DNA from: a virus | Reading direction: 5' to 3' (one strand) | Virus record (IMG/VR): IMGVR_UViG_3300027907_000053 | Span: 1 to 24,708 of that record | Length of the DNA: 24,708 nucleotides | Shown: one piece after another, positions 6,155-22,748 of the stretch | Layout: every line of letters begins with the position of its first letter | How positions within the stretch are numbered: position 1 is the stretch's first letter | Notes under the pieces: generated by a model | Seen by the model: the letters and a program-made list of their open reading frames with translations, nothing else | What the model was told of the DNA's origin: nothing | Database searches by the model: none | Program-made: the position numbers and the translations under genes

Positions 6155-6913
6155 ATGGAGACGAAGGCATTTCCGCTGAGTGAAGTGAAGGCGGCGGGCG
6201 CGAAGGGCGAGTTCGAGGCGCTGGTCTCGGTCTTCGGCAACGTCGATCGCGTACGTGACCGTGTCCATGAGGGCGCGTTCACGAAGGCGATCGAGGAGCA
6301 GCCGCCGCCGCCGGTGGTCTGGTTCCACCAGTGGAAGATCCCGCCGATCGGCGAGACGATCGACTGGGGCTCGACGTCGAAGGGGCTGACCGTCAAGGGC
6401 CGCCTGTTCGTCGACGAAGAGGACGACCACGAGTACGCGCGGATGGTCTACACCGCGATGAAGTCGCGGGAAGGGCGTCCGCCGGCGCTGCGCCAGTTCT
6501 CGTTCGCCTACGACGTCGATGACGCCGAGGAGTCGTTCGAGAAGGGCTCGAGGATTCGCGAGCTCAAGTCGCTCTTCCCGATCCACGAGGTCGGCCCGTG
6601 TCTGCGAGGGATCAACGAGGAGACGGGGCTCGTCCAGGCGCCGAAGGCCACGTCGGGCTTCGAGACGTTCAACGGCATCTACGTGCCGGCGACGTGGGCG
6701 TCGTCGGGGAACAGCGACTCGTACACGTTCACGGTGACGAAGTCGACCACGACGCCGGAGCCCGATCCGCCGGCGCCCGACCCTGAGCCCGAGCCGGCCC
6801 CGCCGGCGCCGGAGCCAACCCCCTCAGCAGAAGCCAAGGCGATCCCGGCGTGGCGGTTCCCTCCGCGACACGCCACCCAACCCCCGGTCCCGAGCGGAGG
6901 AGAGAAGCGATGA
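6155..6913 (+). CDS. Prohead protease (HK97 family, S78/U35)
   Basis: This 252-aa maturation protease would cleave the capsid protein's N-terminal delta/scaffold segment during prohead expansion. The catalytic-type positions are visible: His58 in VVWFHQW, preceded by the conserved region FEALVSVFGNVDRVRDRVHEGAF (20-42), and Ser116 in LRQFSFAYDV (112-121), with KGLTVKGRLF between them. After about residue 165 the chain becomes low-complexity, with a Pro/Glu-rich linker (PEPDPPAPDPEPEP at about 205-220), perhaps a tether or self-cleavage zone. The ATG follows a GATAGG element. The TGA overlaps the capsid ATG (ATGA), which is standard for protease-capsid pairs. Confidence 0.88.
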   Translation: METKAFPLSEVKAAGAKGEFEALVSVFGNVDRVRDRVHEGAFTKAIEEQPPPPVVWFHQWKIPPIGETIDWGSTSKGLTVKGRLFVDEEDDHEYARMVYTAMKSREGRPPALRQFSFAYDVDDAEESFEKGSRIRELKSLFPIHEVGPCLRGINEETGLVQAPKATSGFETFNGIYVPATWASSGNSDSYTFTVTKSTTTPEPDPPAPDPEPEPAPPAPEPTPSAEAKAIPAWRFPPRHATQPPVPSGGEKR

Positions 6914-11348: not shown

Positions 11349-13175
11349 ATGGCGACGCAACTATATCTTCGTTCGACGCTCCCTTCTACACATAGGGGAA
11401 CGAATACTGCGAAGTTGGATGGAACTGCATCAGGTTGGACTCCGAGGGCACTGAGTACCTCGATTGGGACTAGCGCTCCCGACAATGCCGACGTGAATCC
11501 TGTGAACGGGCCAACCAACGGTCTTGAAATGCAAATCGCGTCCGTTCCAGTCGAATGGATTTCCGAGCCTGTAGCTGCGGACGTAACCATTTCCGGCACG
11601 GTCACCGCGAACCTCTGGGCGTTTGAGAACAGCATGACCGACAATGCTGCGATCAACGTGATCATCGACATCATTCGTGCGACGGATAACGCGATCGTGC
11701 AGATCGTGAAGAGCACGCGCACTACGGAGCTTGCTACAACGGCAGGCGGGACGGTCCAGAACTTTACGACGGGTATGACTTCGGGCGCTTACACAGCGCA
11801 AACGCTCAATCGTGGCGATCGTTTACGCATCCGGGTCTTTATCGACGATGCAGGAACAATGGCTGCCAATGCCATTGGGCCGACCAGTTTCTATTTCGAT
11901 ACGGTCAGCATTGGGTCTTCGGGCGACAGCTACGTCACGTTCACCGAGAACATCACGTTCGAGTCGGGGGGCGGCGTCGGCGAGGTTGCCTCGATCACCC
12001 AGAGCAGCGCAGCGGACGGCCAGGCGAATATCGGGACCGCGAGCTTCCAGGCGTATCTAGCGCAGTCCTTTACCGCGCTTGGCCCGATCAGTCGGGTCGA
12101 ACTGTGGCTTTCAAAAGGAGGCACCCCAACCGACAACGTCATCGTCGAACTACAGTCGGATGCTTCCGGGGTTCCGTCAGGCACCGTTCTTGCTTCGCAA
12201 AGCATGTCAGCAGCGAGTCTTAGTGCTGTCACACCAGCATGGTGGAGTTTCGCTCTTTCCTATGCGACGACTCCATCGACGCTGTACTGGATCGTTCTTT
12301 CGAGATCGGGTGCGTTTGATGGTGCGAATGTCCCCCGTGCCGGTCGTGCTAGCAACCTCTACGCGGGCGGATCGTCGGCAGTTGGTCAGAGTGGGCCGCT
12401 GCTTTGGATTGAGGACGCCACTAAGGACTTGACGTTCATCGTCTATCAGCCCGTCTCGACCAGGCTCTACCTGACCGACACCGCCTCCGCCGTCGCGACC
12501 GCCTCGGTCGACCGGGAAGCATGGACAAGTCGGGGCAGCGGTGTCGTCAACGACGTGACGAACACGGCGGCCGGGTTCACCACCCCGAGGCAGGTGACCG
12601 ACACCGCTGGGGGCACCGTTGTCGACTGGTTCACCAGGCCACTCCAGGCGGTGACGCTGACCGGACTGGCAGAGGCGAACATCCGGGCGCTCGAGTCCGC
12701 GATCGCCGCGAACGCCTCGCTCCGCGTCGAGATCGCCCGTGTCGCGGGCGACGGCACCAGCCCGACGGTGTGGGCGTCGTGGTGCGCGAGCGCCAACAAC
12801 GGGCGTACAGGGGAGCTCAACACGGCCGAGGCGGCCGAGACGGTCAACGTCTCCGGGGACGACCTCGCGATCACGAACGGGCAGCGGCTCCGGATCCGGC
12901 TCTACATCGATGACATGCCGACGGCGGCGATGGGCGCCTCCCAGACCGTCACGACCTACTACGGCGGCACCAGCGCCGGCGCCTCGGGGGACACGTACAT
13001 CACCTTCCCGGTGACGCTGACCGAGTACGCCACCGGGCCGTTCGTCTACACCGACACGGGCGCCGGCGTCGCTGGTCTGGTCGGCTCCGGGGCGTCCGCG
13101 AAGGTCTCTGGCGCCGCCCCCGGCCCTGTCCTCCGTCGCCAGCGTCGCGCGAGCCGCTTCCTCACGTTCCGCTAA
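11349..13175 (+). CDS. Mosaic three-domain virion surface protein with duplicated domain
   Basis: This is a 608-aa protein. Domain A (about residues 3-200) and domain C (about 372-560) are homologous: both begin with an LYL strand and end with a matching block (GDRLRIRVFIDD / NGQRLRIRLYIDD, then SSGDSYVTF / ASGDTYITF). Domain B (about 205-370) resembles the beta-sandwich choice-of-anchor type (QAYLAQSFTALGPISRVELW, VPSGTVLASQSM, TLYWIVLSRSG). Residues 565-588 carry one 20-residue repeat of the kind that makes up the protein at 13691. The DNA for A, and partly B, is markedly AT-richer than that for C, pointing to recombination. A host-surface or sugar-binding fibre/decoration role is inferred. 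ATG directly follows the upstream stop (TAGATG) without a ribosome site. Confidence 0.7.
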   Translation: MATQLYLRSTLPSTHRGTNTAKLDGTASGWTPRALSTSIGTSAPDNADVNPVNGPTNGLEMQIASVPVEWISEPVAADVTISGTVTANLWAFENSMTDNAAINVIIDIIRATDNAIVQIVKSTRTTELATTAGGTVQNFTTGMTSGAYTAQTLNRGDRLRIRVFIDDAGTMAANAIGPTSFYFDTVSIGSSGDSYVTFTENITFESGGGVGEVASITQSSAADGQANIGTASFQAYLAQSFTALGPISRVELWLSKGGTPTDNVIVELQSDASGVPSGTVLASQSMSAASLSAVTPAWWSFALSYATTPSTLYWIVLSRSGAFDGANVPRAGRASNLYAGGSSAVGQSGPLLWIEDATKDLTFIVYQPVSTRLYLTDTASAVATASVDREAWTSRGSGVVNDVTNTAAGFTTPRQVTDTAGGTVVDWFTRPLQAVTLTGLAEANIRALESAIAANASLRVEIARVAGDGTSPTVWASWCASANNGRTGELNTAEAAETVNVSGDDLAITNGQRLRIRLYIDDMPTAAMGASQTVTTYYGGTSAGASGDTYITFPVTLTEYATGPFVYTDTGAGVAGLVGSGASAKVSGAAPGPVLRRQRRASRFLTFR

Positions 13176-13690: not shown

Positions 13691-15718
13691 ATGCGCTACC
13701 CGATCCGAGCCCGTAAGCGCCCAGGTCGCGTCGGTCTCTACCGCTCGGTCGCGGTCGTCGGCGGCGCGGTCACTGCGGGCGCGAACGTCTACACCAAGGC
13801 GGGCTACGGCGCGACCGGTCTCGTCGGTTCCGGGCCGAGCTCGAGCGTCTTCGTCGAGTCCAGCTTCGCGACCGTAGGCCACGTTGGCGCGGGCGCGGGC
13901 GCTTCCGTCTTCGACAAGCGGGGCTTCGGCGCGGCGGGCCTGGTCGGCTCCGGGCCGAGCGCGAGCATCGTCCAGAAGACCGGCGCCGGCATCGAGGGGT
14001 TCGTCGGCGCGGGCGCCAGAGCGTCGCTGGTACAGAAGAGCGGCGCGGGCATCACGGCGCTCGTCGGCGCGGGGAGCTCCGAGTCGATCGCGCAGGAGAC
14101 CGGCTTCGGCACGGTGGGCGGCGTCGGCTCGGGCGCGAGCCAGTTCGTGTCTGGGGCGGGCGCCGTCTACACGAAGAGCGGCTTCGGCACCGTCGGCTTC
14201 ACCAGCACCGGCCCCAGCGTCTCCATCGAAGACCAGACCGGGGCTGGTGTCCTTGGCCTCGTCGGGTCGGGGGCGAGCGCGTCCGTCAACCAGGAGGCGG
14301 GCGCCGGTGTCGTGGGCCATGTTGGCTCCGGGGCGAGCTCCTCCGTCTTCCAGAAGAGCGGCTTCGGCACCGTCGGCCACGTCGGCTCCGGCCAGGACGC
14401 GTTCGTCGCCAGCGAGACTGGCTTCGGCGCCGTCGGCCACGTTGGCTCCGGGGCGAAGCAGGTCTCCGGCTTCCAGCTCTACGCGAAGTCCGGCTTCGGC
14501 ACCGTCGGGTTCATCAGCACCGGGCCGAGCGTTTCGGTCGAGGTTCAGACAGGCGCCGCGACCGTTGGCTTCGTCGGCTCCGGCGCAGACGTCGTCGTCT
14601 CGCAGGAGACGGGCACCGGCACCGTCGGGTTCGGTGGCTCCGGCGCGAGGGCCGCCGTCAAGCAGAAGACGGGTTCTGGTGTCATCGGACACGTCGGCTC
14701 GGGGGCGGGCAGCTCGGTCGCGCAGGAGGCCGGCGCAGGTGTCGTCGGGGCGGTCGGCTCCGGCTCGAGCGCCAGCGTCTTCGTCAAGGCGGGCGCCGGC
14801 GTTGTCGGCCATGTCGGCTCCGGACCCAGCGAGTCGTTCACCGCCAAGACCGGCGCAGGCGTCGTCGGCCACGTCGGGGCGGGCGCGTCGGCACGCGCGG
14901 GCGTTCAGACCAAGACCGGCGCGGGCGTCCTCGGTCTCGTCGGCTCCGGCGCCGATGTCGATGTCGCGCAGGAGCGAGGCGCCGGCGTTGTCGGGTTCGT
15001 CGGCTCTGGAGCTCGCGCGCGGATCATCCAGAAGAGCGGCTTCGGGAGCGTCGGCCACGTCGCCTCCGGGGCGGGCGAGTCGTTCACCGCCAAGAGCGGC
15101 GCCGGCGTGCTCGGCGCGGTCGGCTCGGGCGCCGCGTCGAAGGCGAGCACTGCCGGCAAGAGCGGCTACGCGACCGTCGGTCTCGTCGGCTCCGGTCGTC
15201 GCAACAGCGTCACCACCAAGCGCGGCACCGGTGTCGTCAGCGGGATCGGCTCGGGCGCTGGCGCGAGCGTCTACGCGAAGCGCGGCTCCGGCAGCGTCGG
15301 CGCTGTCGGCTCCGGGTCGCGCTCGACCCTGTACACGAAGACCGGGTTCGGTCTCGCAAACCTGACAGCTTCCGGCGGCCGGATCCTCGAACACCCGCGC
15401 TCCGGCTACGGCACCGTCGGCACCGCTGGCTCCGGCACCGTCACCCGCGCGGTCATCGTCAAGACCGGCTACGGCCAGCTCGGCACGGTCGGGTCGGGTC
15501 GGCGGCAGAGCAGCGCCCCGAACCCCGGCAAGCTGACGACGACGAACGGGAGCCTCGACGGGCTCGAGCTCGGGATCAGCCGCTCGCGCGGCAGCCTCGT
15601 CGTCACCGCCGGCGCCGGCACGCTCGGAGTCTCGTCCGGTTCCACCTCGAAGGACCGGGTCGGGCTGCGCGACTACCCGCCCGGCGAGGTGGAGCCCGAG
15701 ACGATAGGCGCGGCGTGA
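13691..15718 (+). CDS. 675-aa repetitive Gly/Ser/Val-rich fibre-like protein
   Basis: A basic N-terminus of 33 residues is followed, from residue 34 to about 610, by about 28 tandem 20-residue repeats with consensus QKTGAGVVGHVGSGASASVF. Some units are extended by 1-5 residues (for example about residues 154-160 and 258-262). The strict period, Gly-Ser-Gly turns and alternating small/hydrophobic residues suggest a repetitive beta structure such as a beta-helix or fibrous stalk. A non-repeat tail of about 65 residues ends the protein. One identical-style repeat closes the gene at 11349, so the two may share an assembly interface. Position between capsid and connector suggests a head fibre or capsid stalk. 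A tail-fibre role is possible. The TGA overlaps the connector GTG. Confidence 0.8.
   Translation: MRYPIRARKRPGRVGLYRSVAVVGGAVTAGANVYTKAGYGATGLVGSGPSSSVFVESSFATVGHVGAGAGASVFDKRGFGAAGLVGSGPSASIVQKTGAGIEGFVGAGARASLVQKSGAGITALVGAGSSESIAQETGFGTVGGVGSGASQFVSGAGAVYTKSGFGTVGFTSTGPSVSIEDQTGAGVLGLVGSGASASVNQEAGAGVVGHVGSGASSSVFQKSGFGTVGHVGSGQDAFVASETGFGAVGHVGSGAKQVSGFQLYAKSGFGTVGFISTGPSVSVEVQTGAATVGFVGSGADVVVSQETGTGTVGFGGSGARAAVKQKTGSGVIGHVGSGAGSSVAQEAGAGVVGAVGSGSSASVFVKAGAGVVGHVGSGPSESFTAKTGAGVVGHVGAGASARAGVQTKTGAGVLGLVGSGADVDVAQERGAGVVGFVGSGARARIIQKSGFGSVGHVASGAGESFTAKSGAGVLGAVGSGAASKASTAGKSGYATVGLVGSGRRNSVTTKRGTGVVSGIGSGAGASVYAKRGSGSVGAVGSGSRSTLYTKTGFGLANLTASGGRILEHPRSGYGTVGTAGSGTVTRAVIVKTGYGQLGTVGSGRRQSSAPNPGKLTTTNGSLDGLELGISRSRGSLVVTAGAGTLGVSSGSTSKDRVGLRDYPPGEVEPETIGAA
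13790..15520 (+). repeat. About 28 tandem 60-bp coding repeats
   Basis: Degenerate direct repeats with a 60-bp period encode the 20-residue units. The most conserved bases are in the stretch coding GFGTVGHVGSG. Units differ at most third positions, so the array is old or diversified rather than freshly expanded. Two pairs of longer units recur about 300 bp apart (units 6-7 and 11-12), hinting at a higher-order duplication of about five units. Confidence 0.8.
15701..15711 (+). promoter_or_regulatory. SAS-like GATAGG element, copy 7 (before connector)
   Basis: ACGATAGGCGC lies within the last codons of the repeat protein, reading ThrIleGlyAla. GATAGG ends 6 nt before GTG 15715, the shortest spacing of the set. 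Confidence 0.72.
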
Positions 15719-17725: not shown

Positions 17726-18703
17726 ATGGCCGTAACCCCCGGCAACACCAGGGTCATCTACGGCGCTGTCCAGTCCGCCAAGGGGACGCCGGCGACGGCG
17801 CCGACCCACAAGTTCTCGCTCAACTCGGACGGCGCTGGCAACCCCGGCCGCGAGATCATCACGCTCCCCGAGACCGACGCCACGATGCAGCGGCCGGACA
17901 ACACGGTCGTCGGCTCCTCGCCGGTGCTCGAGTGGTCGAACTGGGTGCGCGGCAGCGAGTTCGCGTTCCTCGCGAAGGGGATCCAGGGTGCCAACGCCGA
18001 CGCCGGCACGTTCACGCACACGGCGACGCCGGTGCAGACGCTGCCCTACTACACGTTCTGGGACGTCGTGCCGGGCTCGCAGTGCACACGCTTCGACGAC
18101 TGTCGCTTCTCCAGCCTCGCGGTCTCCGGCGAGGCGCTCGCCGGCATCGCCTACACCGTCTCGATCGTCGGTCTCTCGGCGACGCTCGGCGTGACCGAGC
18201 CGATCGTGCCGGCGGCGCAGGCGACCGACCAGAAGTTCTCCTACCCGATGGTGACGGTCACGATCGGCGGCGTCGCGCCGGGCACGTTCGACGCGTTCTC
18301 GCTCACGATCAACCGCAACGTGACCGTGCTGCGCGGCGACCTCGGGCTCGCCTCCTACGACTCGGTCGCGGGCATCTACGCGGTCGAGGGGACGGCGCGG
18401 AAGATCTACACCGGCGACGCGGACTTCCGGAAGTTCCACGGCGGCTCCGCCGCAGCGACGACGCTGACGACCGCGATCTTCAGCGAGACGTTCTCGCTCC
18501 AGGTCGCAGCCTCGGCCACGAACAAGGTCGTCTTCACGAGCAGCTCGGTCGAGTACACCGAGACGACGGTGCCGGTCAACGTCGACGGCGCGCCGATCCT
18601 CTCGGAGCTCGCGTTCTCGACCAAGCGCCAGCCGGTCTGGGCGAACAACCTGACGATCGTCACGACCAACTCGCTCGCCACGGCGGACACCTCGCCGACC
18701 TAG
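17726..18703 (+). CDS. Major tail (tube) protein
   Basis: This 325-aa protein is rich in Thr, Ser, Ala and Gly with many strands, placed before the chaperones and tape measure as in other siphophages. It begins TRVIYGAVQSAKGTPATAPTH, a common opening of actinophage and related major tail proteins. It continues with beta-rich segments (SFTLxx-like FDAFSLTINRNV, GDLGLASYDSV), an IYTGDADFRKFHGG loop and a C-terminal strand NLTIVTTNS. It polymerises into the tail tube around the tape measure. A short GAGGCTGAG before ATG 17726 is a weak ribosome site. Confidence 0.85.
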   Translation: MAVTPGNTRVIYGAVQSAKGTPATAPTHKFSLNSDGAGNPGREIITLPETDATMQRPDNTVVGSSPVLEWSNWVRGSEFAFLAKGIQGANADAGTFTHTATPVQTLPYYTFWDVVPGSQCTRFDDCRFSSLAVSGEALAGIAYTVSIVGLSATLGVTEPIVPAAQATDQKFSYPMVTVTIGGVAPGTFDAFSLTINRNVTVLRGDLGLASYDSVAGIYAVEGTARKIYTGDADFRKFHGGSAAATTLTTAIFSETFSLQVAASATNKVVFTSSSVEYTETTVPVNVDGAPILSELAFSTKRQPVWANNLTIVTTNSLATADTSPT

Positions 18704-18705
18704 GC

Positions 18706-18930
18706 GTGAGCGATGAGCAGCTCCTCCGCGCCTTCCGCGACGAGGTCTATCTCGCCAAGGCGCTGGTGCGCTCGACCCGCAACCACACCAAGACGACGGC
18801 GGCAGCCCTCCAGGACTCCGAGGACCGCATTGACGCGCTGATCGCCGAGCTCGAACAACGGATCCCCCACGCCCGAGGAGGCCCAGGGACAAATGGAAGA
18901 GCGCAAGACACCACCGAAGCCAAACGGTAA
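18706..18930 (+). CDS. 74-aa helical protein between tail tube and chaperones
   Basis: The frame opens with GTG 18706 just after the tail-tube stop (TAGGCGTG) and ends at TAA 18928-18930, overlapping the chaperone gene by 38 bp. The product is helical (DEQLLRAFRDEVYLAKALV, then LQDSEDRIDALIAELEQRI) with a Pro/Gly/basic tail, possibly a coiled coil. No family is recognised. It may act with the chaperones in tail assembly. It is less certain than its neighbours because it is short. Confidence 0.55.
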   Translation: MSDEQLLRAFRDEVYLAKALVRSTRNHTKTTAAALQDSEDRIDALIAELEQRIPHARGGPGTNGRAQDTTEAKR

Positions 18931-19465
18931 GGCCGCCTGGGCCGCACGCTCCGACCGCGGCCCACACACAGCGGAGCTGCCGTCCGGCCAGATCGTGCGG
19001 TTCATCGTTCCCAACTCGAACGAGCTGCTGCGCGCGAACAAGATCCCCGACCACCTGACGGAGATCGCGCTGATGGCGACCGCGTACATCGACGGCGCCG
19101 ACGGCTACATGGGCGACCTCGCGATGCGCGCGGCCGTCGACCCGGAGCAGATGAACCGCGTCGCCGATGTCGTGCGCGCCGGCCTCGAGCTCCGCGAATG
19201 GCTCGTCGCGACGATGCTCCTTGAGCCGGAGATCGAGCCGAGCGACGTTCGCGAGCTGCCCGAGGCGGACGTGCGGATGCTCCTGGACTTCGCCGAGCGC
19301 AAGCGCAACGAGGACGCGAAGGGGGTGCGGCTCCCGATCGTCCTGCTCGAGGAGTACGAGCGGTTTCGTAACGAGCCGAGCAGCCGTCCGGATGATGGAG
19401 ATGGCGGGGGAGACGGTGCAGGGGTTCCTGGCGCTGACGCCCCGGCTGACGTGGGTGCAGTGTGA
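18893..19465 (+). CDS. Tail assembly chaperone (gpG-like)
   Basis: This 190-aa protein lies directly upstream of the tape measure, where lambda gpG-like chaperones sit. After a basic start it has HTAELPSGQIVRFIVPNSNELLRANKIPD (strand plus helix), then long helices (ADVVRAGLELREWLVATMLLEPE, ADVRMLLDFAERKR). The last 30 residues are Asp/Gly/Pro low-complexity, as expected when a frameshift normally diverts translation before the stop. GAGGAGG at 18875-18881 plus AGGG at 18885-18888 support ATG 18893. It keeps the tape measure soluble and recruits tube protein during tail assembly. Confidence 0.78.
   Translation: MEERKTPPKPNGKAAWAARSDRGPHTAELPSGQIVRFIVPNSNELLRANKIPDHLTEIALMATAYIDGADGYMGDLAMRAAVDPEQMNRVADVVRAGLELREWLVATMLLEPEIEPSDVRELPEADVRMLLDFAERKRNEDAKGVRLPIVLLEEYERFRNEPSSRPDDGDGGGDGAGVPGADAPADVGAV
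19364..19411 (+). other. Candidate programmed frameshift region (chaperone G to GT)
   Basis: The downstream chaperone frame is +1 (equivalently -2) relative to the upstream gene. Two slippery candidates lie in the overlap. One is TTT-C at 19364-19367, where Phe-tRNA could move +1 from TTT to TTC. The other is GGGGGA at 19406-19411, where slipping back two bases re-pairs Gly-tRNA and continues in GAG; this resembles the -2 G-run used by phage Mu. I cannot choose between them. Confidence 0.5.
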
Positions 19466-19622
19466 GTGCTGCGGCCGGGTCGAGGACGACGGCGTCGCGC
19501 ACCTCCTCATCGCGGAGGCGGTGCTGATGTACATGCTCGCGCGCCGCGCCAAGCGGGACCGTGACGACCGGGCATACCGCGACGCGCAGGCGCAGATCGA
19601 CGCCGTGAGGGCCGGCCGCTAG
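19392..19622 (+). CDS. Second tail assembly chaperone frame (gpT-like, frameshift product)
   Basis: This frame continues to TAG 19620-19622, directly before the tape-measure ATG. From ATG 19392 it encodes 76 residues (MMEMAGETVQGFLALTPRL, then WVQCECCGRVEDDGVAHLL, helix LIAEAVLMYMLARRAKRDRDD). It overlaps the gpG-like gene by 74 bp in another frame. In siphophages this arrangement normally makes a fused GT protein by ribosomal frameshifting. Alternatively ATGs at 19392, 19395 or 19401 could start a free protein, although none has a clear ribosome site. The Cys cluster CECC is unusual for a chaperone and could bind metal. Confidence 0.65.
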   Translation: MMEMAGETVQGFLALTPRLTWVQCECCGRVEDDGVAHLLIAEAVLMYMLARRAKRDRDDRAYRDAQAQIDAVRAGR

Positions 19623-22600
19623 ATGGCGATCCAGTCGAACCTCGCCGGCGTCGCCAGGGTCGCGTTCGAGGCCGAGACCGGCGAGTTCAACCGCGACATC
19701 ACTCAGGCGGAGCAGCGGTACAAGCAGGCGACCGAGCACATGTCGGACTCGTCGATCCGGCTGGAGCTCGCGCAGAACCGACTGCACCGGGCTCTTGCAA
19801 AGGGTCCAGGAAACTATCAGGCGATCGCACGCGCCGAGCTCGCGGTGCGGCGCGAACAGGACGCGCTCTCCCGCTCGGTGAACAAGAGCACCGCCTCGAT
19901 GGATCGCGAGGAGCGTTCGCTCGGCCGGCTGACGCGCGGCATGATCGTCGGCTCGGGCGCCGCCGGCCGCTTTGGCCGCTCGGTCGCGTTCGCCTCCTCG
20001 TCGTTCCTCGGCGGCGCTGGGTTCGCGTATGCGCTCAAGTCAACGCTCGACGTCGCGGGGCAGTTCCAGCGGTCGTTGAACGTCATGCAGGTCGTCACGC
20101 ACGCGACCGCGGCGGAGATGGGCCGGGCGTCGGAGGAGGCGAAGCGACTCGGCCGCGACATCACCCTGCCCGCCACCTCCGCGAAGGACGCGGGCGACGC
20201 GATGACCGAGCTCGGCAAGGCGGGCCTCAACGTGCAGCAGTCGATCGCCGGCGCGGAGGGCGTTCTCCGCCTCGCCGCGGCTGCGGGCATCGAAGTCGGG
20301 GACGCCGCCAAGATCACGGCCCGCTCGCTGAACGCGTTCAGCCTCAGCGGGGAGAGCGCGAGCAAGGTCGCGGACGTCTTCGCGGCCACCGCGAACGCCG
20401 CCTCGGGCGAGATCCCCGACGTCGCGCTCGCGATGCAGCAGGCGTCCAACGTCGCCCACTCGTGGGGGCTGTCGCTTGAGCAGACCGCCGCGATGCTGGG
20501 CCTGCTGGCGAACAAGTCGATCATCGGCTCGGACGCAGGCACGTCGCTGCGCGTCATGCTCACGCGGCTCATCCCGATCTCGAAGGCCGCGGCCGACAAG
20601 ATGAACGAGCTCGGGTTGTCCGCGACCGACTCGGCCGGGAACATCAAGCCGCTGCGGCAGATCCTCAAGGAGTACCACGACCGCCTGGTCACGCTCGCGC
20701 CGGCCGAGCAGAAGCTGGCTGTCCAGACGATCTTCGGGCAGGACGCCCAGCGCGCCGTGTTCGCCACGATCCTCGGCGGGCTTCCGGCGTACGACCGGAT
20801 GCTGAAGAAGGTCTCCGAGCTCGACGCCGCGCAGAAGAACGCAGCCGCCCGCAACAAGGGCTACTCGGGCGCGCTGGACGCCTTCAAGTCATCGATCGAG
20901 ACGCTCCAGATCACCATCGGGACGGCCCTCCTGCCGCAGTTCACCGAGGCGCTTCGGGCGGCGACGAACTGGGTCAACAAGATGGAGTCAAGCGGTGAGG
21001 CGACCGAGCAGGCGAAGACCGCCATCCATGACGCTGCGGTCGCGCTGAAGATCCTGAAGGAGGTCTTCGGCGGCATCAAGGCTGTCCTCGACCCTGTCAT
21101 CGAGGCGGTCGGCGGGCTCACGCACGCGCTGGAGATCGCGATCGGCGCACGGTTCATCTACAAGATCCTGCGCTCGTTCGGGATCCTGGCAACCTCGAGC
21201 TCGGCTGCCGCGACGAAGGGTGCCGCCGACGCGCTCCGCTTCGAGGCGGCCTGGGATGCCGCGACTCGGAACCGGACGATGGTCGTCACCACCGTCACCG
21301 AGGGCGTCCCTGGTGGCGGAGGTGGCGGAGGTGGTCGGGGGCGAGGCACGCCGACTCCGGTGCCGACCGGACGCCGTGGCCGCATCCCCACGATCTCGGG
21401 GCGCGGGCTCGTGGGTGGCCTCATCGCAGGCGCCGGCGCGGCCGTCGTGATCAACGAGACGCTCGGCGGCGTCATGGGGCCGCCGCCGCTGCGCCAGCAG
21501 CAGCTCAACATCGCGGACATGTCTCGCGTCGACCCAAAGCGGGCGCGCGAGCTGGCCCGCGAGTACAACCGCAAGTGGGGGACGCCGATGGGGCAGCTCA
21601 CCTCCGGCAACCCGCTGCTGATGTCGCAGGGCGACTACCAGGCTGTGGTTGGCCGGCAGAAGCTGCCGACCGAGATCGTCGCACCAGGCGAGGGGCGCCC
21701 GATTCCGGGGCCGGTCCCTGGGAAGAAGCCCCCGCGCCGGAGGACCGGCAGCGGTGCCGGTGGTGACGGTCTCTCGCCGCTCGATCGCGCGGAGATCGCC
21801 GCAGCGAATGCCGGGACGCCGCAGCAAGAGCTCGCTGCCGAACGGCAGATCCTCGCGATCTACGAGCGCGAGCTGAAGACCGGTCACCTCACCGGGGAGA
21901 AGCTGAAGGACCTCCGGATCAAGATCGGCAACCAGCGCCAGACGGTCAGGGGGATCGAGGAGGGAATCGAGAGGGACGCGGAGCAGGAGCGCGACGAGCG
22001 GAAGCGCAGGCAGAAGGAGCGCGCCGACGCGCGCAAGGCCCGGTACCGCGAGCGGATCGACACCGCCGAGCAGGAGCTCCGGAACCTCTTCGACGAGGCG
22101 CTCGAGCGGCCCGGACGTGCCGGCGATCGACGCCGGTACCTGGCGCTCCGCAAGTTCCTGATGGCGCGCGTGAACGACGCGAGGCTCACCGCGAAGGAGC
22201 AGGCCGACGCGCAGAAGCGGATCAACCTCCTCGACAAGCAGTGGGTCGCGTCACGCAAGGCGGAGACGAAGAACGAGCTCGAGGCGCGCGAGGAGGTGCT
22301 GCAGAACAACGTCGCAGCCGCAGAGCTGACCGAGAAGAACGAGAAGGACGACATCAAGGCGCACCGCCGGCTGCGCGACTTCTACAAGCGCCAGGAGCAC
22401 AACCGGAAGCTGGACGCCGCGGCACGGCAGGAGTTCCGCGGCAAGCGGATCGCCGAGCAGAAGGAGATCAACCAGCTCCTCAAGGGCGACGACGCGAAGC
22501 GCGACGCAGAGACGATCCGCAGGGAGACAGAGGCGGCGTTCTCCGACTTCGCGGGCTTCCAGCACCAGTTCCTGACGGGGATGATCTCGCAGTTCCTCGG

Positions 22601-22748
22601 CGGAACCGGATCGGGCAACGCGCTCCAGACCCACGCGCTCGAACAGTTCACGCTGCAAGGAAACGCGCACCTCGCGGAGCAGACCCGCTACCTGCGCGTG
22701 ATGGCCGGCCGGCATCGCCGCGAGCTCGACGAGGCGTTGATGCCCTGA
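19623..22748 (+). CDS. Tape measure protein
   Basis: This 1041-aa protein sets tail length; at the rule-of-thumb 1.5 angstrom per residue the tail would be about 150 nm. The N-terminal 110 residues are helical and charged. A Gly/Ala-rich hydrophobic stretch (about 105-140) leads into a TP901-type tape-measure core (about 160-400: AAEMGRASEEAKRLGRDITL, ASGEIPDVALAMQQASNVAH, IIGSDAGTSLRVMLTRLIP, LAVQTIFGQDAQRAVFATIL). There is a Gly-run near residue 562-570 and a hydrophobic segment near 595-615. The last 350 residues are a highly charged Lys/Arg/Glu coiled coil. ATG abuts the chaperone stop (TAGATG). No peptidase or lysozyme domain is visible. The stop overlaps the next ATG (TGATG). Confidence 0.92.
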   Translation: MAIQSNLAGVARVAFEAETGEFNRDITQAEQRYKQATEHMSDSSIRLELAQNRLHRALAKGPGNYQAIARAELAVRREQDALSRSVNKSTASMDREERSLGRLTRGMIVGSGAAGRFGRSVAFASSSFLGGAGFAYALKSTLDVAGQFQRSLNVMQVVTHATAAEMGRASEEAKRLGRDITLPATSAKDAGDAMTELGKAGLNVQQSIAGAEGVLRLAAAAGIEVGDAAKITARSLNAFSLSGESASKVADVFAATANAASGEIPDVALAMQQASNVAHSWGLSLEQTAAMLGLLANKSIIGSDAGTSLRVMLTRLIPISKAAADKMNELGLSATDSAGNIKPLRQILKEYHDRLVTLAPAEQKLAVQTIFGQDAQRAVFATILGGLPAYDRMLKKVSELDAAQKNAAARNKGYSGALDAFKSSIETLQITIGTALLPQFTEALRAATNWVNKMESSGEATEQAKTAIHDAAVALKILKEVFGGIKAVLDPVIEAVGGLTHALEIAIGARFIYKILRSFGILATSSSAAATKGAADALRFEAAWDAATRNRTMVVTTVTEGVPGGGGGGGGRGRGTPTPVPTGRRGRIPTISGRGLVGGLIAGAGAAVVINETLGGVMGPPPLRQQQLNIADMSRVDPKRARELAREYNRKWGTPMGQLTSGNPLLMSQGDYQAVVGRQKLPTEIVAPGEGRPIPGPVPGKKPPRRRTGSGAGGDGLSPLDRAEIAAANAGTPQQELAAERQILAIYERELKTGHLTGEKLKDLRIKIGNQRQTVRGIEEGIERDAEQERDERKRRQKERADARKARYRERIDTAEQELRNLFDEALERPGRAGDRRRYLALRKFLMARVNDARLTAKEQADAQKRINLLDKQWVASRKAETKNELEAREEVLQNNVAAAELTEKNEKDDIKAHRRLRDFYKRQEHNRKLDAAARQEFRGKRIAEQKEINQLLKGDDAKRDAETIRRETEAAFSDFAGFQHQFLTGMISQFLGGTGSGNALQTHALEQFTLQGNAHLAEQTRYLRVMAGRHRRELDEALMP

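Follow-up and report, generated by a model that had tools for sequence, protein, structure and literature searches.

Tail assembly chaperones made by frameshifting are known from tailed phages (Xu, Hendrix and Duda 2004, as cited in PMC5009743). In phage λ (gpG/gpGT) and other phages of this kind, two small overlapping genes lie between the tail tube and tape measure genes, the second being expected as a fusion to the first, and most phages shift by -1 on a slippery heptamer. Here we analyse a pair of genes with the same layout in a 24,708-base record of an uncultured virus (IMG/VR record IMGVR_UViG_3300027907_000053; the whole stretch is referred to as the window). The second chaperone of this phage is probably made through a programmed +1 shift at UUU_CGU, without a heptamer.

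Forward shifting at similar sequences has been described in several settings. Bacterial ribosomes are especially liable to shift by +1 at UUU_Ynn (PMC5009743). Influenza A virus PA-X is made at UCC_UUU_CGU, an experimentally mapped +1 site (PMC3498833), and UUU_CGN has been proposed as the +1 motif of plant amalgaviruses (PMC5052127). These viruses share with the window the P-site/A-site cassette and the direction of the shift, and the E-site codon UCC recurs in 8 of 25 phage relatives, whereas the window has CGG. They are, however, RNA viruses with unrelated proteins that use eukaryotic ribosomes; the likeness is one of mechanism and not of kinship. Among tail chaperone genes, a TTT-CGC +1 site has been proposed for the HF1 group of haloviruses (PMC7230728). 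Those are archaeal myoviruses known from six related genomes, whereas the TTT-C loci described here belong to bacterial siphophages of many kinds. Forward shifts have also been annotated in actinophage tail genes, with no general forward-frameshift motif identified, according to the authors of PRFect (PMC10885494). In the part of the literature covered by our search, we found no description of UUU_CGN in bacterial phage tail genes.

A candidate +1 site in the overlap of the chaperone genes

The window carries siphophage head and tail genes, including those for terminase, portal, prohead protease, capsid, tail tube and tape measure. Matches to Pfam and PHROGs place the two chaperone frames, hereafter G and T, between the tube and tape measure genes. 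The features of this region are as follows (GC3, G+C content at third codon positions).

17726-18703, + strand: major tail tube protein gene (PF18906 Phage_tube_2, E 4e-10; phrog_290, E 8e-21)
18706-18930: small open reading frame (ORF) preceding the gpG-like gene, between tube and tape measure
18893-19465, + strand: gpG-like gene for a tail assembly chaperone of 190 residues, 0 frame (location between the tube and tape measure genes; GC3 close to 0.95 as far as about 19370)
19155-19622, + strand: second open frame (T), offset by +1 (equally -2) from G
19361-19369, + strand: CGG_TTT_CGT, proposed +1 shift site (in-frame TTT-C unique in the window and conserved in relatives)
19368-19622, + strand: putative gpT-like extension in the +1 frame, beginning VTSRAAVRMMEMAGETVQG... 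(GC3, codon log odds)
19392-19394, + strand: ATG, rival start for T (weak pairing with the anti-Shine-Dalgarno sequence)
19406-19411, + strand: GGGGGA run after the codon-usage switch, candidate -2 site, possible GGG_G +1 site or Shine-Dalgarno sequence for GTG 19416
19623-22748, + strand: tape measure protein gene (PF10145, E 4.7e-45; phrog_1533, E 4e-81)

A sequence-only reading of the window had placed the downstream frame at +1/-2 relative to the gpG-like gene, and the coordinates bear this out (18893-19465 versus 19155-19622). The two frames overlap over 104 codons, and the end of the gpT-like frame at 19622 directly adjoins the ATG of the tape measure gene. Both elements named in that reading are present in the overlap, namely TTT-C in the G frame (19364-19367) and the GGGGGA run (19406-19411). 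The TTT is followed by CGT (19364-19369), giving an in-frame UUU_CGN ahead of a +1 second frame. The main genes of the window hold no second in-frame TTT-C in 5489 other codons, and TTT is rare in them (6, versus 170 TTC). The probability of meeting it by chance is about 0.006 within 21 codons of the point at which coding changes frame, and 0.027 across the whole overlap.

That point was located at about 19378, both by GC content at each codon position and by a Viterbi path on codon usage, for which the tape measure gene served as training set. TTT-C at 19364 thus lies 14 bases upstream of the switch, and the G-run lies after it. Between 19392 and 19411 the codon log odds are +9.3 for the T frame and -4.7 for the G frame. 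The end of G is rich in Gly and Asp, as the sequence-only reading had noted; it looks like an out-of-frame reading of GC-rich DNA that codes for T, with no need for a function of its own.

These log odds also bear on two readings that place the shift on the G-run. In the first, suggested by the sequence-only reading, ribosomes would slip by -2 on GGGGGA and give the peptide PDDGDGGGETVQG; phage Mu gpGT reaches the same frame of the tail chaperone genes by a -2 shift (PMC5009743, PMC3498833). P-site re-pairing from GGA to GGG is possible and the resulting frame is right. A Mu-type shift would, however, have zero-frame coding continue to the run, and the T frame is already coding-like upstream of it; a shift at GGGGGA would therefore come too late. 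In the second, ribosomes would move by +1 at 19406 (or 19421), on GGG_G, with the junction PDDGDGG-ETVQG. In this case P-site re-pairing from GGG to GGG would be perfect, and PRFect accepts a run of four identical bases as a motif for +1 shifting (PMC10885494), but the same early coding signal in T stands against it. Nor is the run special, as in-frame GGGG is also found at 19322 and 19421. GGGG is common in the overlap of the window, and in relatives the run is unconserved: GGGGG occurs in the overlap of just 3 of 25 relatives with TTT-C, and it is TTT-C that is conserved. We consider the -2 shift very unlikely and the +1 shift on GGG_G highly improbable. Of the earlier proposal, the programmed shift into the +1/-2 frame stands as the best interpretation, with TTT-C as its likely site, but a -2 shift on the G-run found no support.

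TTT-C is conserved in relatives with the same layout

To place the site among relatives, we used an alignment of the tape measure core, which yielded 80 viral and 52 genome loci. Pairs with a -1 offset dominate upstream of the tape measure gene. Fifty-three of these have an overlap; an XXXYYYZ heptamer is present in 31 of the 53 and in-frame TTT-C in 3. Among the nine +1-offset pairs from this set, the window included, six have TTT-C and none has XXXYYYZ. Two of the three +1-offset loci that lack TTT-C (L098 and L120) do not resemble chaperone pairs, and the third (L101) is chaperone-like and has CCC-A. The latter is a chaperone pair in a Mycobacterium palustre prophage, with CCC AAA AGT in the overlap (2845-2913 of that locus), a possible CCC-A +1 site.

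The TTT-C pattern was first noticed on inspecting the +1 overlaps. Further relatives were fetched with G-protein profiles, using search patterns in which the TTT-C site had no part. Of 26 distinct +1-offset relatives in total, 25 have TTT-C in frame within the overlap; it reads TTT-CGN in 22 of the 25 and is preceded by TCC in 8. With the window, the count is 26 of 27 against 0.67 expected (nominal P 6e-44, a value that ignores kinship between loci and is to be read inexactly, as very unlikely by chance). In the sole +1-offset relative without TTT-C (L157, 1501-1836), the two frames share just 11 bases. No consistent Shine-Dalgarno-like element was found upstream of the site.

At the site, all 25 relatives (25 of 25) encode Phe with TTT, compared with 37 TTT and 39 TTC among the remaining Phe codons of these genes (p 5e-7). 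The bias is sharper in GC-rich loci, with TTT in 9 of 9 sites versus 1 TTT and 24 TTC elsewhere (p 2e-7). This exclusive use of TTT at the site, unlike that of other Phe codons, indicates selection on the nucleotides and not only on Phe-Arg; for the window by itself, the sign of selection is the chance probability of about 0.006 near the switch.

The site also occurs in phages that have been isolated or whose genomes are complete. It reads TCA_TTT_CGT in Bacillus phage BSP7, CCC_TTT_CGT in Weizmannia phage Youna2 and AAC_TTT_CGT in Dulem virus 36. In a further such phage, Microcystis phage Mae-JY09, the site is CGA_TTT_CCT and is followed in G by about 30 codons rich in Gly, Asp, Ala and Pro, as in the window. 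In the GenBank records of BSP7 (L143, 1864-2140) and Youna2 (L144), the stretch from the first chaperone gene to the tape measure gene carries no annotation of the second chaperone frame. In both phages this frame is open in +1 after TTT-CGT.

Proposed mechanism and the case for a separate start

From the observed frames, site, codon-usage switch and conservation among relatives, we infer slippage at TTT-C, its rate and the chaperone roles. Most ribosomes would complete the 190-residue gpG-like protein. In a minority, Phe-tRNA on UUU (19364-19366) in the P site, with CGU in the A site, would slip by +1 and pair with UUC (19365-19367), making GTA at 19368 the next codon. These ribosomes would go on with GUA, ACG, AGC and the codons that follow, and on reaching the stop at 19622 would have made a gpG-T fusion of 158 + 84 residues; the shift would yield the tryptic peptides FVTSR and AAVR. 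G and G-T may act like λ gpG and gpGT, coating the tape measure and recruiting the tube protein.

Some observations weigh against this reading, beginning with the T codons between the site and the first ATG. These codons (19368-19391) are not clearly coding, and neither frame is over 19367-19392 (log odds G -1.5, T -4.1), yet T is clearly coding exactly from ATG 19392 (+9.3). T could thus be a separate protein with the N-terminus MMEMAGETVQGFLALTPR, started inside the end of G at this ATG, or at one of the other two T-frame ATGs (19395 and 19401), with no frameshift. This is a real alternative in the window phage, but we regard it as unlikely, mainly because of the missing ribosome-binding site and the layout of the relatives. 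ATG 19392 has no Shine-Dalgarno sequence (anti-Shine-Dalgarno duplex -2.2 kcal/mol), 19395 reaches -3.3 and 19401 pairs only at zero spacing, compared with -11.8 for the strong site of the gpG-like gene and -10.3 for the tube gene. The duplex at GTG 19416, downstream of the G-run, is -8.6 kcal/mol. Among relatives with the same layout, the first 25 codons of the second frame contain no ATG, GTG or TTG in 7 of 25 and no ATG in 17 of 25; a separate start is thus no general solution. It would also leave the unique TTT-C unexplained.

Two further points count against a +1 shift at TTT-C. The relatives have no shared downstream RNA structure (mean z 0.13), although none is evident in influenza PA-X either (PMC5009743). 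In addition, hmmsearch, hhalign and profile alignment against shuffles detected no homology of the window's G and T to the TTT-C families, and no close relative of the window phage was found. For the window, conservation of the site is therefore argued by analogy of layout together with kinship of the tape measure, and not from direct descent.

Family assignment and neighbouring genes

Searches with the window proteins returned little. G, T, the tube protein and the single-sequence tape measure retrieved nothing usable from viral contigs, G and T had no match in phages, and G had none in a set of 4 selected genomes or across 396 genomes from a single phylum. Nor did G match any PHROG, Pfam or NCBIfam family with a meaningful E-value, and PDB sequence and fold searches gave nothing useful. 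AlphaFold2 modelled G with low confidence (pLDDT 43.5). The predicted fold runs through a helix, two strands, another helix and then long helices, an order that appears similar to that in the model of family F1. The F1 model has a weak fold resemblance to a phage chaperone (E 0.018), and family F2 matches the phrog_344 tail assembly chaperone (E 3e-10).

Among the G proteins with kinship to phrog_344, second frames of both kinds are found, at a -1 offset in phages of Streptomyces, Thermobifida and Rhodococcus (L146-L149 and L185-L187) and at a +1 offset at TTT-C (L151-L158). The direction of the shift seems to have switched within this family.

Elsewhere in the window, two long ORFs at 11349-13175 (608 amino acids) and 13691-15718 (675 amino acids) lie between the capsid and head-tail adaptor genes, with no strong family match for either. 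The capsid ORF, taken from the candidate start GTG 6850, shares 64 bases (6850-6913) with the end of the prohead protease ORF (to 6913), which is read in another frame.

Discussion

The UUU_CGN mode of +1 shifting was already known from PA-X and the amalgaviruses and proposed for the HF1 haloviruses, and the window phage would add to a known kind. On the wider scale, we consider it quite likely that the tailed phages of bacteria include a large class of chaperones, most of them unannotated, made by +1 shifting at (UCC_)UUU_CGN as in influenza A virus and the amalgaviruses, with one P-site slip working on bacterial, archaeal and eukaryotic ribosomes and with phrog_344 members switching between -1 and +1. 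The conserved UUU_CGN of phage tail genes would then be the forward-frameshift motif so far wanting. It would let annotators recover missed gpT genes, such as those of BSP7 and Youna2, and would offer natural bacterial +1 sites at which P-site slippage on UUU_C may be studied without a stop codon or RNA structure.
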